From an uncultured Desulfobacteraceae bacterium (lineage in GTDB: Bacteria; Desulfobacterota; Desulfobacteria; Desulfobacterales; Desulfobacteraceae), in assembly GCA_913041495.1 (NCBI GenBank), contig CAJWHT010000026.1, forward strand, positions 1 to 40,607: a stretch of 40,607 bases of DNA. Reading direction: 5' to 3'. Below the pieces are notes generated by a model that saw only the letters and a program-made list of their open reading frames with translations, did no database searches and was not told where the DNA came from. Position 1 is the first letter of the stretch. Each line of letters starts with the position of its first letter. Positions 13,018 to 19,200 of this stretch are shown piece by piece. The translations under genes were made by a program, and so were the position numbers.

Positions 13018-13424
13018 ATCTTCAGATAGAATCCTCTATCCCCGAAATGCCGGACTGGCAAACCTGGATGAGGAACGGAAACCAGTATTTTAAAGCCGCC
13101 TGTCCGGAAGGCAAAGGCAGCCGTTTCTCAGCGGACCTGCAGTACAATCTGCTGTCCATGTCCCTGGAAGGGTACGTCATGGCCATATCTGGTTATCACA
13201 ATTGCCTGCCGTACAACCATACGTTTACGGATCTCATGTCGGCCCTAGAACGCATCATCCCCCTGGACCCGGATCTCAAATCCCGGATTCTCCGGCATGA
13301 AAGCATTCAGGATATCTGCTCCATTGAAAACTACCACCGCAGCCATCCCACAGAGGATGCCCTGGCAGACCTGAGATCCGCCGTTGCTGATATAGGGGAA
13401 CTGGCCCGGGAGATTTGTACCTGA
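13014..13424 (+). CDS. Small helical protein, HEPN-like, coupled to the Nif11-like gene
   Basis: This 136-residue, all-helical protein overlaps the preceding gene by four bases (ATGA), so its translation is coupled. GAGGAACG upstream acts as ribosome-binding site and fixes the start at 13014. The pattern (DWQTWMRNGNQYFKAA, then LQYNLLSMSLEGYVMAI, then HTFTDLMSALERIIPLD and a C-terminal helix) resembles HEPN-fold proteins. I see no clear catalytic R-x4-6-H motif, so RNase activity should not be assumed. The pairing suggests that it acts together with the Nif11-like protein in nitrogen fixation. It ends one base before the convergent membrane protease gene. Family assignment is tentative. Confidence 0.6.
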   Translation: MNLQIESSIPEMPDWQTWMRNGNQYFKAACPEGKGSRFSADLQYNLLSMSLEGYVMAISGYHNCLPYNHTFTDLMSALERIIPLDPDLKSRILRHESIQDICSIENYHRSHPTEDALADLRSAVADIGELAREICT

Positions 13425-13425
13425 G

Positions 13426-14322
13426 TCAGAGCGTAACCCGCCACAGGATCAATCCGGTCATCACGGCGGAAAAGACGAGCATTGGTATGATCTCTGCGCT
13501 TGTCAGCCGGCGCATCTTGGGATACCTGTGCATCATGACGGCCAGAAAAACAATTGCGACAAAGGGCAGGGCCGGAATAAAGGCGCCGGAAACCTTGGCC
13601 AGGAGCAGGGCCAGAATCAGGCCTGCACAGGAAACCGGAAACGTCAGCCAGAAGCGCCAGTTGCCCGCTGCACTTTGGCGGGCAGGACGGACCAAGGCGT
13701 CATCCATGCCGAACTTCCAGGCCGCGGCAGAGAGAAACACAACAATCACCCAGTCAGAGATCCCGAACACCGGCATTAATTGCCCGGGGATCGCGATCTT
13801 TACCAGCAGAAAGTCCACAAACGGCGGCAGGCCGACTTCTCCCCCGGTGTAATAGGCGGCTAAACTATCGGAAAATTCCTTGGTGGGGCCGGCTGTGACG
13901 CTGATCATATCGGCCAGGGCGGCCACCAGGCAAAGGGGCATAATTTCCGCCGGCCGCTTCAGCGGAAAGACCATCCAGAACCCGAGGATAGAGGCAAAAA
14001 AAAGGAGGTTGGCAGTGGCGATGACGGCCAGCATATCATACGTGAGGCCGGTGACGGCCTCAAACGCATAGACGGAAAAAAACACGGCCAGGGTTATTGC
14101 CAGCAAAAAAATTCTGAACAGGTGCCTGTCACCGATGGCAGGCTCCACCCGTTTAGCGTAAAACCGAAGCAGGCCAAGCGCGGCAAAAAGGGCCGCTGCC
14201 ATGGATAAAAGCACCAGCGGAAGATACAGCCCCCCTTGAGCCGGCACCAGGTACCCGGACAGATAAATCCCGAAGGAAGCCAGGCACCAGGCCAGGTAAA
14301 CGAATATGATATTACGAATCAT
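13426..14322 (-). CDS. Presenilin-like (A22-type) intramembrane aspartyl protease homologue
   Basis: This 298-residue protein has about nine membrane helices: about 2-24, 33-52, 68-88, 94-118, 124-143, 184-203, 224-242, 249-265 and 278-295. Three features recall presenilin and archaeal PSH proteases. D138 lies in LADMISV, like the YDxISV motif. D190 lies at the start of a helix in GISD, like GxGD. A PALP tetrapeptide at 250-253 lies two helices later. The two Asp residues are 52 apart, as expected. The second motif has Ser for Gly (GxSD) and the first lacks Tyr, so it is divergent and activity is unproven. ATG 14322 has AAGGAGG 9 nt upstream. It is the last gene of a surE - MFS - DUF4438 run and is 30 nt from DUF4438. 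An unrelated polytopic protein is the alternative. Confidence 0.62.
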   Translation of the reverse strand: MIRNIIFVYLAWCLASFGIYLSGYLVPAQGGLYLPLVLLSMAAALFAALGLLRFYAKRVEPAIGDRHLFRIFLLAITLAVFFSVYAFEAVTGLTYDMLAVIATANLLFFASILGFWMVFPLKRPAEIMPLCLVAALADMISVTAGPTKEFSDSLAAYYTGGEVGLPPFVDFLLVKIAIPGQLMPVFGISDWVIVVFLSAAAWKFGMDDALVRPARQSAAGNWRFWLTFPVSCAGLILALLLAKVSGAFIPALPFVAIVFLAVMMHRYPKMRRLTSAEIIPMLVFSAVMTGLILWRVTL

Positions 14323-14352
14323 TCGACCGAGCCTCCTTCAGGCGGTCATCCT

Positions 14353-15249
14353 TTAACTTACCCGGGTGCCGATACCGAGAACATCAGCGATGTTGGCAGC
14401 AGGATCTATCACCGGTTCAATCAGGCTTTTGGGACAGGTCATAACGGTTGAAATGCCCGGGCCGTGGCCGGCCAGAAGGCAGTCGGAATGTACCACCACC
14501 CCGATACTTACCGCCCCCTGGACAAAGGCCCTGCCATAAGAGTTGTCGTGGTCCATCAGGGCGACGAAATCCCCGAACCGCATCTTATCCAAATCGTACT
14601 TCTTGACGGTGTCGGGATCAGAGGTCATGACGTCGTAATCTCCGGCAGCCACATGGGCCCGGCCCACACCGGATCCCATGCAGGGGGCCGGCACCTTTGT
14701 TGTGACCGGGACCCGAAGCTTGCCATCGCCGGTTTCCGTAATGGTCATCTTTTCCAGCAGCGCCGGGTCCAGGTTGAACAATTTGATTGCCGGATAATCT
14801 GTTAGGGCCAGACCCTGCCCCCGGGCACGGATCTGGATCTTATCGTCGTAGGTCATCTTCTCTTTGATCTCTTTGGGAAAATCGACAATGATGTGTTCCG
14901 ATCCGCCGTGGTGGCCGATGACAACCCCCTTTTCCCCCTTGGCGTCCCCGGAAACGATGATGGCTTCATTGCCGATGCAGGACAGGATTTGAAGGGAGGT
15001 GTTGGGAAATTCGTTGGGTTTTTCCGCATTGGCCGTGCAGGAGACGCCGGGCTCGATATGGTCACCGGCCAGGCCGAAGGCGGGATCTCCCACCTGGACG
15101 TTGAGGGTGATCCCCCCGATGCCGGGCATCAGAAACGGAGTACCCCGGTGATCCACTTTCCAGCCCAGGCCCACCCGCGGCATACCGGGTTTGCAGGCCA
15201 GAAACATTTCCACCACACGATCCTGATTCGTTTTTAAAGTATTTGACAT
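14353..15249 (-). CDS. DUF4438 family protein
   Basis: The 298-residue cytoplasmic protein matches my recollection of the DUF4438 family (Thermotoga TM1086-like, beta-rich). Conserved-looking stretches are [59 protein letters not shown] and [14 protein letters not shown]. No biochemical role is established to my knowledge; the His, Asp and Cys-rich conserved loops suggest metal or ligand binding. The start at 15249 follows a GGGGGA ribosome-binding site. It lies 11 nt after the MFS transporter gene and 30 nt before the presenilin-like gene, all on one strand. Confidence 0.72.
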
Positions 15250-15260
15250 GAAAGTCCCCC

Positions 15261-16460
15261 TTATGCATTATCACCGGCGATGCCGGATGTTGTCTTCTGT
15301 ATTCTTCGCTTCAGTGTAAATAAAAATGGTATGGCTGTAAATCCGATTGCCGCCGCGATGATAAACATGGCTTCCATACCGAAGGCATCCCCCAGGGCGC
15401 CGACCACGACCACAGCCAGGGAACGCACGGCAAAGGAAGTCATCATGAACAATCCGTTGGCGGCGGAAGGGTTGTTTACGGCACGTTCCTGGATCAGGGC
15501 CAGCATCACCGGGGTGGTGGACAATACCGTGAACCCGGTGACAAGGAGCCACAGTACCTGAAAGATACCGGAGGTAAGTATAAATAAAAGGATGGCCACA
15601 GGAGCCGTGATCAATGCCCAGAACAGCACCCGCTGCCGCCCCAGACGGTCGGACAGGGTGCCTGCGGAAAGCACCCCGGCCACCCCCAGCGCCTCATACA
15701 ATGCCAGGGCAGCGCCCCCCATCCAGAGGCTCTCGGTTTTCTGCTCCACATACACCGTAAGAAACACGCCCATGGCACCGTGCATGCAGGCCCGGGCCGT
15801 GAGAATGGCAGCCAGGGGCTCCAGCACATGGCGGATCTCCAGATAAGCGGCCTTTAACGAACCCTTCCGCTTGATGGCGGTCTTTTCCCCGGCCCGCTCC
15901 AGGGTCAGATAAAGGACGACGGAGGTGATCACGGCAAGGACAAGAACGTAATGAAACTGCCCCAGCCCCAGGAGGGACACGGCACCGACGGCCACCATGG
16001 GCCCAAGTGTCCTGGCAAGCTCCCCGCCGGTCATAAAAAAACTCATGCCCCGCCCCTTGAAATCCCCGGCATATCTGGCAATGAGCACCGGGGAAGGCAC
16101 GTGAAACAGGGCCACGGATATACCGGTGATAAATACCAGGACCAGCAACATTCCGTAGGTCGGGGCCAGCCCCAGCAAACTCATGGGGATTGCCGTCATG
16201 GTGGGGGCCAGGATCACCAGCCACCGGGCCAGTCCCCGGTTGTCCGCAAACAGCCCGATAAAGGGATTGAGCAGTGCCGGGATCTGCATCACTGTGGACA
16301 GCAGCCCGGCTTGGCTAAGAGACAGGGACAACTTTTCAATGATCAGGGGCAACAGCGGGGACAGAAAACTGGTGTATAGATCATGGACAAAATGGGCCGT
16401 TGAAACCAGGGTTACCCGGGCGCTGTCAAAGGCCTTGCCCGGGGCGTGTGTGGCCGGCAT
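15261..16460 (-). CDS. MFS transporter, fosmidomycin-resistance-like
   Basis: The 399-residue, 12-helix permease opens with a soluble tail and [21 protein letters not shown], close to the start of Fsr-type drug exporters. It has the usual loop 2-3 (GLFADNRG), a [24 protein letters not shown] segment typical of the Fsr subfamily, and a second-half loop LSDRLGRQR. Its likely role is proton-driven export of a small anionic or drug-like compound; the substrate is unknown. Its ATG shares one base with the stop codon of surE (TGATG), so the two are translationally coupled. DUF4438 follows by 11 nt. Confidence 0.8.
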
Positions 16461-17209
16461 CAGAATCCTGCCTCTTCAAGTTCCGACATGAGGGAATAGG
16501 CCGTCATATCGCATTGGATGGGCGTGATGGAGATGTAATTTTCCAGCAGGGCGTCATTGTCCGTCCCTTTACCGGGGCGTACCGGTACCATGCCGCCGTA
16601 CCAGTAATAGAGCTTTTTCCGGGGATCCTCCCGCCGGTGAAATTCATTGGACAGGTTGTTGTCCGCCTGTTTGGTGATACGCACGCCCTTGACGTCGCTG
16701 ATGGGAATGCAGGGCCCGTTAACGTTGAGAAACACCCCCTGCGGCAACCCCATGGTGCAGGTTTTCACTACCAGAGAGCCCATATAGGCCGCCATCCCGT
16801 CAAAATCCATAATGTCTCCGTACTGAAGGGAGACCGCTATGGCGGCAACACCGTTGATAGAAGCTTCTCTGGCCGCACCGGCCGTTCCGGAGTAGTTGAT
16901 ATTCACCCCGGTGTTGGACCCTGAGTTTATCCCGGAAATCACCAGGTCCGGCATTCCATCGCACAGATCGAACAGCCCCAGCTTAACGCAATCCGCCGGG
17001 GTGCCGTTCACGGCATAGCCTTTTCCGCCACCGTTCAGCGCCACCCGGTCGTACCGCAGGGGCTGGTTCAGGGTAATCCCGTGGCCAATGGCGCTGCGCT
17101 CCCGGTCGGGAGCCACCAGAATCACTTCATGTTCGGGGGCAAGGGCCCGGTATAGCGCCAGGATGCCCGGCGCCCGGTATCCGTCATCGTTGGTCAACAA
17201 TATTTTCAT
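16460..17209 (-). CDS. surE: 5'/3'-nucleotidase SurE
   Basis: The 249-residue protein has the full SurE signature: MKILLTNDDG with metal ligands D8 and D9, then S39 (DRERSAIGHG) and N95 (SGINSGSNTG). It removes phosphate from nucleoside 5'- and 3'-monophosphates using a divalent metal in the cytoplasm. Length is normal for the family. In many Proteobacteria surE lies next to pcm and rpoS or nlpD; here it instead heads a run with an MFS exporter, DUF4438 and the presenilin-like gene. A sigma70-type promoter lies at 17277-17306. The start codon is preceded by a weak GGAAA. Confidence 0.95.
   Translation of the reverse strand: MKILLTNDDGYRAPGILALYRALAPEHEVILVAPDRERSAIGHGITLNQPLRYDRVALNGGGKGYAVNGTPADCVKLGLFDLCDGMPDLVISGINSGSNTGVNINYSGTAGAAREASINGVAAIAVSLQYGDIMDFDGMAAYMGSLVVKTCTMGLPQGVFLNVNGPCIPISDVKGVRITKQADNNLSNEFHRREDPRKKLYYWYGGMVPVRPGKGTDNDALLENYISITPIQCDMTAYSLMSELEEAGF

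Positions 17210-18363: not shown

Positions 18364-19200
<837 letters not shown>

Follow-up and report, generated by a model that had tools for sequence, protein, structure and literature searches.

The gene and its motifs

We analysed a 40,607-nucleotide stretch of DNA from an uncultured Desulfobacteraceae bacterium (the window) and observed, on its minus strand, an open reading frame that runs from 14322 to 13426, starts with ATG and encodes a membrane protein of 298 amino acids, here called the presenilin-like protein. A Shine-Dalgarno sequence, AAGGAGG, lies 10-16 nt 5' of the ATG, and a gap of 30 nt separates the gene from an upstream gene for a DUF4438 protein. The plus strand opposite the gene contains stops in the first frame; further ORFs on that strand, 13415-13852 among them, are mechanical. 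The gene at 13426..14322 is real. The features of the locus are as follows.

13426..14322, minus strand: presenilin-like membrane protein gene, with an open frame, a Shine-Dalgarno sequence and homologues in many species
14332..14338, minus strand: Shine-Dalgarno sequence AAGGAGG, read from the sequence
14353..15249, minus strand: DUF4438 gene (PF14505, PF20999), directly upstream and probably in the same operon
13897..13914, minus strand: ADMISV (residues 137-142) with the first catalytic-type aspartate, D138, close to the end of TM5 that is predicted to be periplasmic
13846..13887, minus strand: helix 146-159 after TM5 in the structure model, in the place of presenilin TM6a
13762..13806, minus strand: beta-strands 173-178 and 181-187 of the window model, paralleled by two strands in the second structure model and running into the second aspartate motif, in the place of presenilin beta1/beta2
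13753..13764, minus strand: GISD (residues 187-190), a GxGD variant, with D190 at the start of TM6 (alignment of 79 members)
13564..13575, minus strand: PALP (residues 250-253), a PAL-type motif before TM8 (alignment of 79 members)

The initial annotation of this locus had pointed to D138 in the context LADMISV, D190 in GISD and PALP at 250-253, and all three are present at these residues (the D138 codon is 13909-13911), with a spacing of D-52-D-60-P. The pattern D-x(40-70)-G-x-[GSTA]-D-x(40-70)-PAL was found in 16 of 10000 shuffles of the window protein and in 1 of 427 neighbouring non-family ORFs, compared to 64 of the 79 family members described below. When PAL was loosened to P[AVG][LM], the same pattern was found in 75/79 members and in 4/427 non-family ORFs. 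This arrangement of two aspartates and a PAL motif exceeds chance.

Operon context within the genus

The order SurE, MFS, DUF4438, presenilin-like gene is conserved in 11/11 genus genomes with long enough flanks, and by coordinates the presenilin-like gene lies directly behind DUF4438 in all 16 genus loci. Among the 19 genus genomes, DUF4438 is present in 17 and the presenilin-like gene in 16. One genome (G013) keeps SurE, MFS and DUF4438, with a 17-residue match to the N-terminus of the membrane protein left in place (L140:2991-3041); this remnant is probably a deletion scar, the gene having been lost in one species. Outside the genus the neighbours differ, in flanks of about 8 kb or less, where a hydrolase-like ORF follows the gene in three loci and the rest are varied. 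The bacterial operon that had been proposed thus stands in that DUF4438 is probably a member of it, but the partner is seen within the genus only. Since the arrangement was seen in the genus only and one species keeps the operon without the gene, the operon says little about function, and we set aside a function derived from the SurE-MFS-DUF4438 partners. In the open-licence PMC literature, we found no paper containing the word DUF4438.

Within the genus, DUF4438 proteins are 79-86% identical to the window's copy, compared to 34-52% for the presenilin-like protein, which diverges much faster than its neighbour (window 13426-15249). The SurE-MFS-DUF4438 cluster (window 14353-17209) is kept in the genus genomes examined. 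In five Desulfuromonadales loci (L050, L055, L056, L057 and L058), a conserved ORF of 75-85 amino acids lies directly after the presenilin-like gene. Elsewhere in the window, a small ORF at 12736-13017 matches Nif11 below threshold, at 17.6 bits against a cut-off of 23.8 (E 0.0048), and the gene at 18376-19200 is, as we take it by eye, NifH-like.

Seven of the 16 genus loci (L003, L006, L008, L011, L012, L013 and L016) have no ATG, GTG or TTG before TM1, and in these the DUF4438 stop falls within about 11 nt of where the match begins. The start-less loci suggest a rare start codon (ATA/ATT) used by termination-reinitiation. The stop overlap reads ATGA in L005 but ATAA in L013. A frameshift fusion to DUF4438 is not favoured for the family at large, given that the gene in the window carries both an ATG and a Shine-Dalgarno sequence of its own and that the relative frame varies among the 16 loci. 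Six of the seven start-less loci share one frame relative to DUF4438, and in them such a fusion may occur.

A divergent family with invariant catalytic-type residues

We gathered 79 distinct homologues by collecting all ORFs that the first profile matched with an E of at most 0.001 and dropping identical ones; by record label they are mostly Desulfobacterota. The set includes L061, which is cut by a contig end, while L106 and L107 stand outside all counts. Of 59 related genomes, 18 gave relatives in a protein search, and profile searches found them in 29/291 genomes of the order, 16/19 of the genus and 3/395 of the phylum sample, the window's own genome included throughout. Scanning the species genome collection gave 61 matching stretches, 48 of which encode relatives. 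The relatives are labelled Desulfobacterales, Desulfuromonadales and kin, one merely 'Proteobacteria' and a few merely 'Deltaproteobacteria'; some of the latter are Myxococcota by NCBI names.

Family members diverge to about 30% identity, and seven columns are invariant in 79/79: D138, S141, G145, P184, G187, D190 and P250. Judged by sequence, D138, G187, D190 and P250 are the residues expected for the catalytic pair, the first glycine of GxGD and the proline of PAL. If only residue types are taken into account, a random choice of two D, one G and one P would fall entirely on invariant columns with a probability of about 0.0004. The PAL region (n = 79) is P250 in 79, A251 in 65 (V 12, G 2), L252 in 76 (M 3) and P253 in 77. 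Residue 137 is A in 55, S in 16, T in 3, V in 3 and I in 2, so that the tyrosine of YD occurs in 0/79. Residue 189 is S in 51, T in 16, A in 11 and G in a single member, which leaves GxGD in 1/79; in a tree of the 79, whose bootstrap is unsettled and which has several long branches, this residue changes at least 13 times among S, T, A and G.

The sole glycine at 189 belongs to L100, which reads LFGVGDLIF and PALPF. L100-L104 group apart from the other 74 rows as a deep sister branch, and since their profile finds the window gene at E 5e-14, the GxGD form of L100 belongs to the same family as the window protein. The motifs in L100-L104 are GVGD, GVTD, GAAD or GITD, with PALP or PVLP, and these proteins match no Pfam family.

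Sequence searches

Pfam and NCBIfam returned no match above cut-off for the window protein and the family members scanned, and PF01080, PF04258 and PF06550 were without a match in 11/11 family proteins scanned. Neither the window protein nor its alignment matched the PDB by sequence. HHalign comparisons to the archaeal presenilin homologue PSH gave probabilities of 1% or less; one run at a loose setting placed both aspartate motifs in register with PSH, and we gave it no weight because other runs chose other registers. With HMMER, the PSH profile placed two family members on top, at 6.3 bits (E 0.25) and 4.8 bits (E 0.69), with the best decoy at 4.1 bits, and in the reverse direction the family profile placed PSH at position 255 and a Natrinema relative at 218 in a list that included 427 decoys. 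For scale, human presenilin-1 itself is found by the same two-sequence PSH profile at E 0.0012 only, so the PSH-profile test is weak, and its outcome is still negative. PF06550 was matched in 0/395 genomes of the phylum sample, and no PSH relatives were found in viral contigs. In the window's own genome, a 13.5-bit PF06550 stretch on another contig (E 0.1) was taken as noise. The lack of a presenilin/SPP family hit, which the initial annotation held to speak against its own proposal, is what we observed at the sequence level across Pfam, NCBIfam, PDB sequences, HHalign and HMMER.

The predicted fold ranks presenilin first

AlphaFold2 models were obtained for the window protein (model 1; 49-row alignment, pLDDT 91.5, pTM 0.89) and for L046, a Desulfuromonadales member (model 2; 46-row alignment, pLDDT 90.7, pTM 0.90). 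The two models are not independent, because most alignment rows are common to both. Model 1 comprises helices 2-25, 33-63, 67-91, 96-117, 124-144 (TM5, with D138) and 146-159, followed by strands 173-178 and 181-187 and by helices 188-203 (with D190), 230-245, 251-266 (from PALP on) and 275-297. It shows nine membrane helices, as had been proposed from the sequence. Model 2 has the core of model 1 minus the last helix, with eight helices in all and strands at 181-185 and 192-197. Under 22 residues remain from position 270 on in 32 of the 79 rows, which therefore have no room for the last helix.

We compared both models to the PDB using Foldseek. For model 1, presenilin-1 occupies ranks 1-8 of 41 (E 0.013-0.28, prob 0.77-0.99), and all non-presenilin matches have a prob of 0.06 or less. 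For model 2, presenilin-1 occupies ranks 1-10 and presenilin-2 rank 11 among the best 50 of 118 matches (E 0.013-0.27, prob 0.57-0.99), the others among these 50 being at 0.11 or less. A search of the viral structure library BFVD, with model 1 only, gave 27 matches, headed by a signal peptide peptidase (SPP) from a Megaviridae sample at prob 0.89; no other match exceeds 0.08. The presenilin likeness claimed by the initial annotation thus agrees with the predicted models: presenilin heads the PDB matches of both, and SPP heads the viral matches of the window model. For both models, the best E is 0.013, none of the PDB matches listed reaches 0.001, and archaeal PSH is absent among them. Foldseek TM-scores are 0.32-0.39 to presenilin-1 (PS1), with an rmsd of 15-20 Å, and 0.28 and 0.36 to presenilin-2. 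Human SPP is described, in a passage of a 2026 preprint, as superposing on presenilin over TM1 and TM5-9 and not over TM2-4 (PMC13252537); since that superposition is itself partial, a low global TM-score need not exclude kinship.

Both models show a TM6a-like helix, a strand and a second strand, and then the second aspartate motif. The arrangement resembles that of substrate-bound PS1, in which TM6a is given as L268-E277, beta1 as Y288-S290 and beta2 as R377-L381, just before GxGD (in the part of PMC10290658 that covers this region). According to the alignment and model 1, the two invariant aspartates sit in the neighbouring membrane helices TM5 and TM6, and in model 1 the PAL motif is C-terminal to GISD and precedes TM8. 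The layout of A22 proteases has the aspartate pair in TM6/TM7 and PAL before TM9; the window protein has nine helices, but its aspartates are in TM5/TM6 and its PALP is before TM8. The presenilin and PSH order and spacing that had been claimed are therefore borne out in part: the spacing is near that of PSH, but the elements lie one helix earlier.

Membrane orientation and proposed mechanism

Lysine plus arginine on the predicted inside segments exceed those on the outside segments in 79/79 members, with the N-terminus and loops 2, 4, 6 and 8 counted as inside (66 reference residues), 68 residues as outside, and borders taken from model 1. The predicted orientation has the N-terminus inside and the aspartate pair, the hairpin and PALP toward the periplasm, as in SPP. 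In SPP, the aspartate pair is described as luminal and remnant signal peptides as N-cytosolic and C-luminal (in a passage of PMC13252537).

The window protein is probably an intramembrane aspartyl protease of a divergent bacterial kind, with a core of the presenilin/SPP type; its catalysis, substrate class and role are putative. The catalytic pair would consist of D138, where TM5 ends, and D190, where TM6 begins. Unwound substrate would be bound as an added beta-strand by PALP together with the TM6a-like helix and the beta-hairpin that precedes GISD. The minimal form would have eight helices, with the window's subgroup carrying a ninth at the C-terminus. Because the aspartate pair is predicted to face the periplasmic side, as in SPP, we propose type II (N-in/C-out) segments as substrates, for instance signal anchors or spent signal peptides; the lipoprotein named as a possible substrate by the initial annotation was not supported. 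Since a prepilin peptidase and proteases of the SppA and S2P types are also encoded in the genome, the putative protease would be an addition and not a replacement. A narrower proposal, to which we give somewhat less than an even chance, is that the family forms an unnamed bacterial presenilin/SPP branch with an eight-helix core that acts as a periplasmic signal peptide peptidase, with S/T/A fixed at the position of PS1 G384.

Alternative explanations and class assignment

It is unlikely, in our judgement, that the family has a presenilin-type fold without protease activity, as a pseudoprotease or membrane chaperone in which the aspartate pair is kept, for example, for proton or ion handling. 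This would fit the replacement of GxGD by Gx[STA]D in 78/79 members; gamma-secretase activity is described as virtually abolished when G382 or G384 is replaced by a larger residue (in a passage of PMC10290658). It would also fit the loss of the YD tyrosine, the loss of the gene in one species, and the finding of neither a substrate nor a widely conserved partner in the neighbourhoods compared. Both aspartates and the PAL proline are, however, invariant in 79/79 despite the divergence of the family, position 189 holds small residues only, and G264A in human SPP is described as causing a mild defect only (in a passage of PMC13252537).

Kinship to the second GxGD group, that of the type IV prepilin peptidases (A24), is highly improbable. 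These GxGD-type proteases are widespread, with PF01478 matches in 12/14 control genomes, but the window protein has no PF01478 match and the genome has a separate A24 gene elsewhere, on which grounds we rejected this identity; nor is a prepilin peptidase among the PDB fold matches listed, and the PAL motif is not known to be part of A24. An unrelated membrane protein, such as a transporter or permease, with convergent motifs and Foldseek matches, is quite unlikely. It would account for sequence-profile tests without a significant match and for TM-scores of 0.32-0.39 to PS1, under the 0.5 that is the usual bound for a shared fold. Against convergence, presenilin and SPP are the sole matches with a prob above 0.11 among those listed for two models and two libraries, the motif residues were picked from one sequence and proved invariant across 79/79, and human SPP itself is described as aligning with presenilin only over TM1 and TM5-9 (in the same passage of PMC13252537).

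The initial annotation had called the protein a divergent A22 member with GxSD in place of GxGD. The substitution extends to S/T/A in 78/79 members, but there is no sequence match to A22, and we do not file the window protein as A22 because the family model, the tyrosine of YD, GxGD and the helix numbering all fail. Most likely, it works like a presenilin/SPP-type protease, as a bacterial variant tied to that group through its predicted fold and its conserved catalytic-type residues.

Presenilin is the enzyme core behind Alzheimer's amyloid, and SPP and presenilin reportedly have archaeal roots (Raut et al. 2021 is said to treat these). If active, the family would offer a small bacterial enzyme for mechanism work. 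Its activity would mean that the GxGD glycine beside the catalytic aspartate is replaceable in nature by small residues, that the presenilin/SPP core is reducible to eight helices, and that an aspartyl intramembrane protease of this type has been added to a bacterium already equipped with SppA-type and S2P-type proteases. Presenilin-type proteases are described in eukaryotes and archaea in the passages that bear on them (including PMC2947513; other literature drawn on: PMC7768045, PMC9263693, PMC8305020, PMC9239227 and PMC8396450). We found no description of a bacterial presenilin-type family in the open-licence PMC literature; a passage of one review mentions a 'bacterial presenilin homologue' in passing, the protein being unnamed there.

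Comparison with known systems

Type IV prepilin peptidases (A24, PF01478) are membrane aspartyl proteases with a GxGD-type motif; the window protein does not match this family, and the genome's own A24 gene lies elsewhere. The lipoprotein signal peptidase LspA is a smaller protein that is not known to have a PAL motif. It is described as a bacterial membrane aspartyl protease (in a passage of PMC12067869), and the window protein differs in that nothing in Pfam matches it above cut-off.

PSH of Methanoculleus marisnigri (PF06550, PDB 4hyc) has the spacing D162-58-D220-56-P276, compared to 52 and 60 in the window protein, and reads DAISV at the first aspartate where the window protein reads DMISV. 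The two differ in that no profile match is significant and PSH is not among the fold matches listed. In PSH, alanine at D162 or D220 is described as abolishing activity and G219A as slowing it (in a passage of PMC2947513), and the G-to-A change at this glycine is described in part of the literature as slowing presenilin as well as PSH.

The likeness to SPP (PF04258) consists of the first BFVD match being a viral SPP and of an exoplasmic aspartate pair in both, predicted here and described for SPP in the passage cited above. The family differs from SPP by its eight or nine helices with an inside N-terminus, by changed YD and GxGD motifs and by the lack of a sequence match.

Presenilin-1/2 (PF01080), the catalytic subunit of gamma-secretase, is the best PDB fold match of both family models. 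Compared to presenilin, the window protein has one helix fewer before the aspartate helix and the opposite predicted membrane orientation, and the family has AD for YD, Gx[STA]D for GxGD and a two-residue hairpin turn instead of presenilin's long loop; the position of presenilin G384 is S/T/A in 78/79 family members. The likeness lies in the order of the elements: Asp, TM6a-like helix, two strands, GxxD, helix, PAL, helix.
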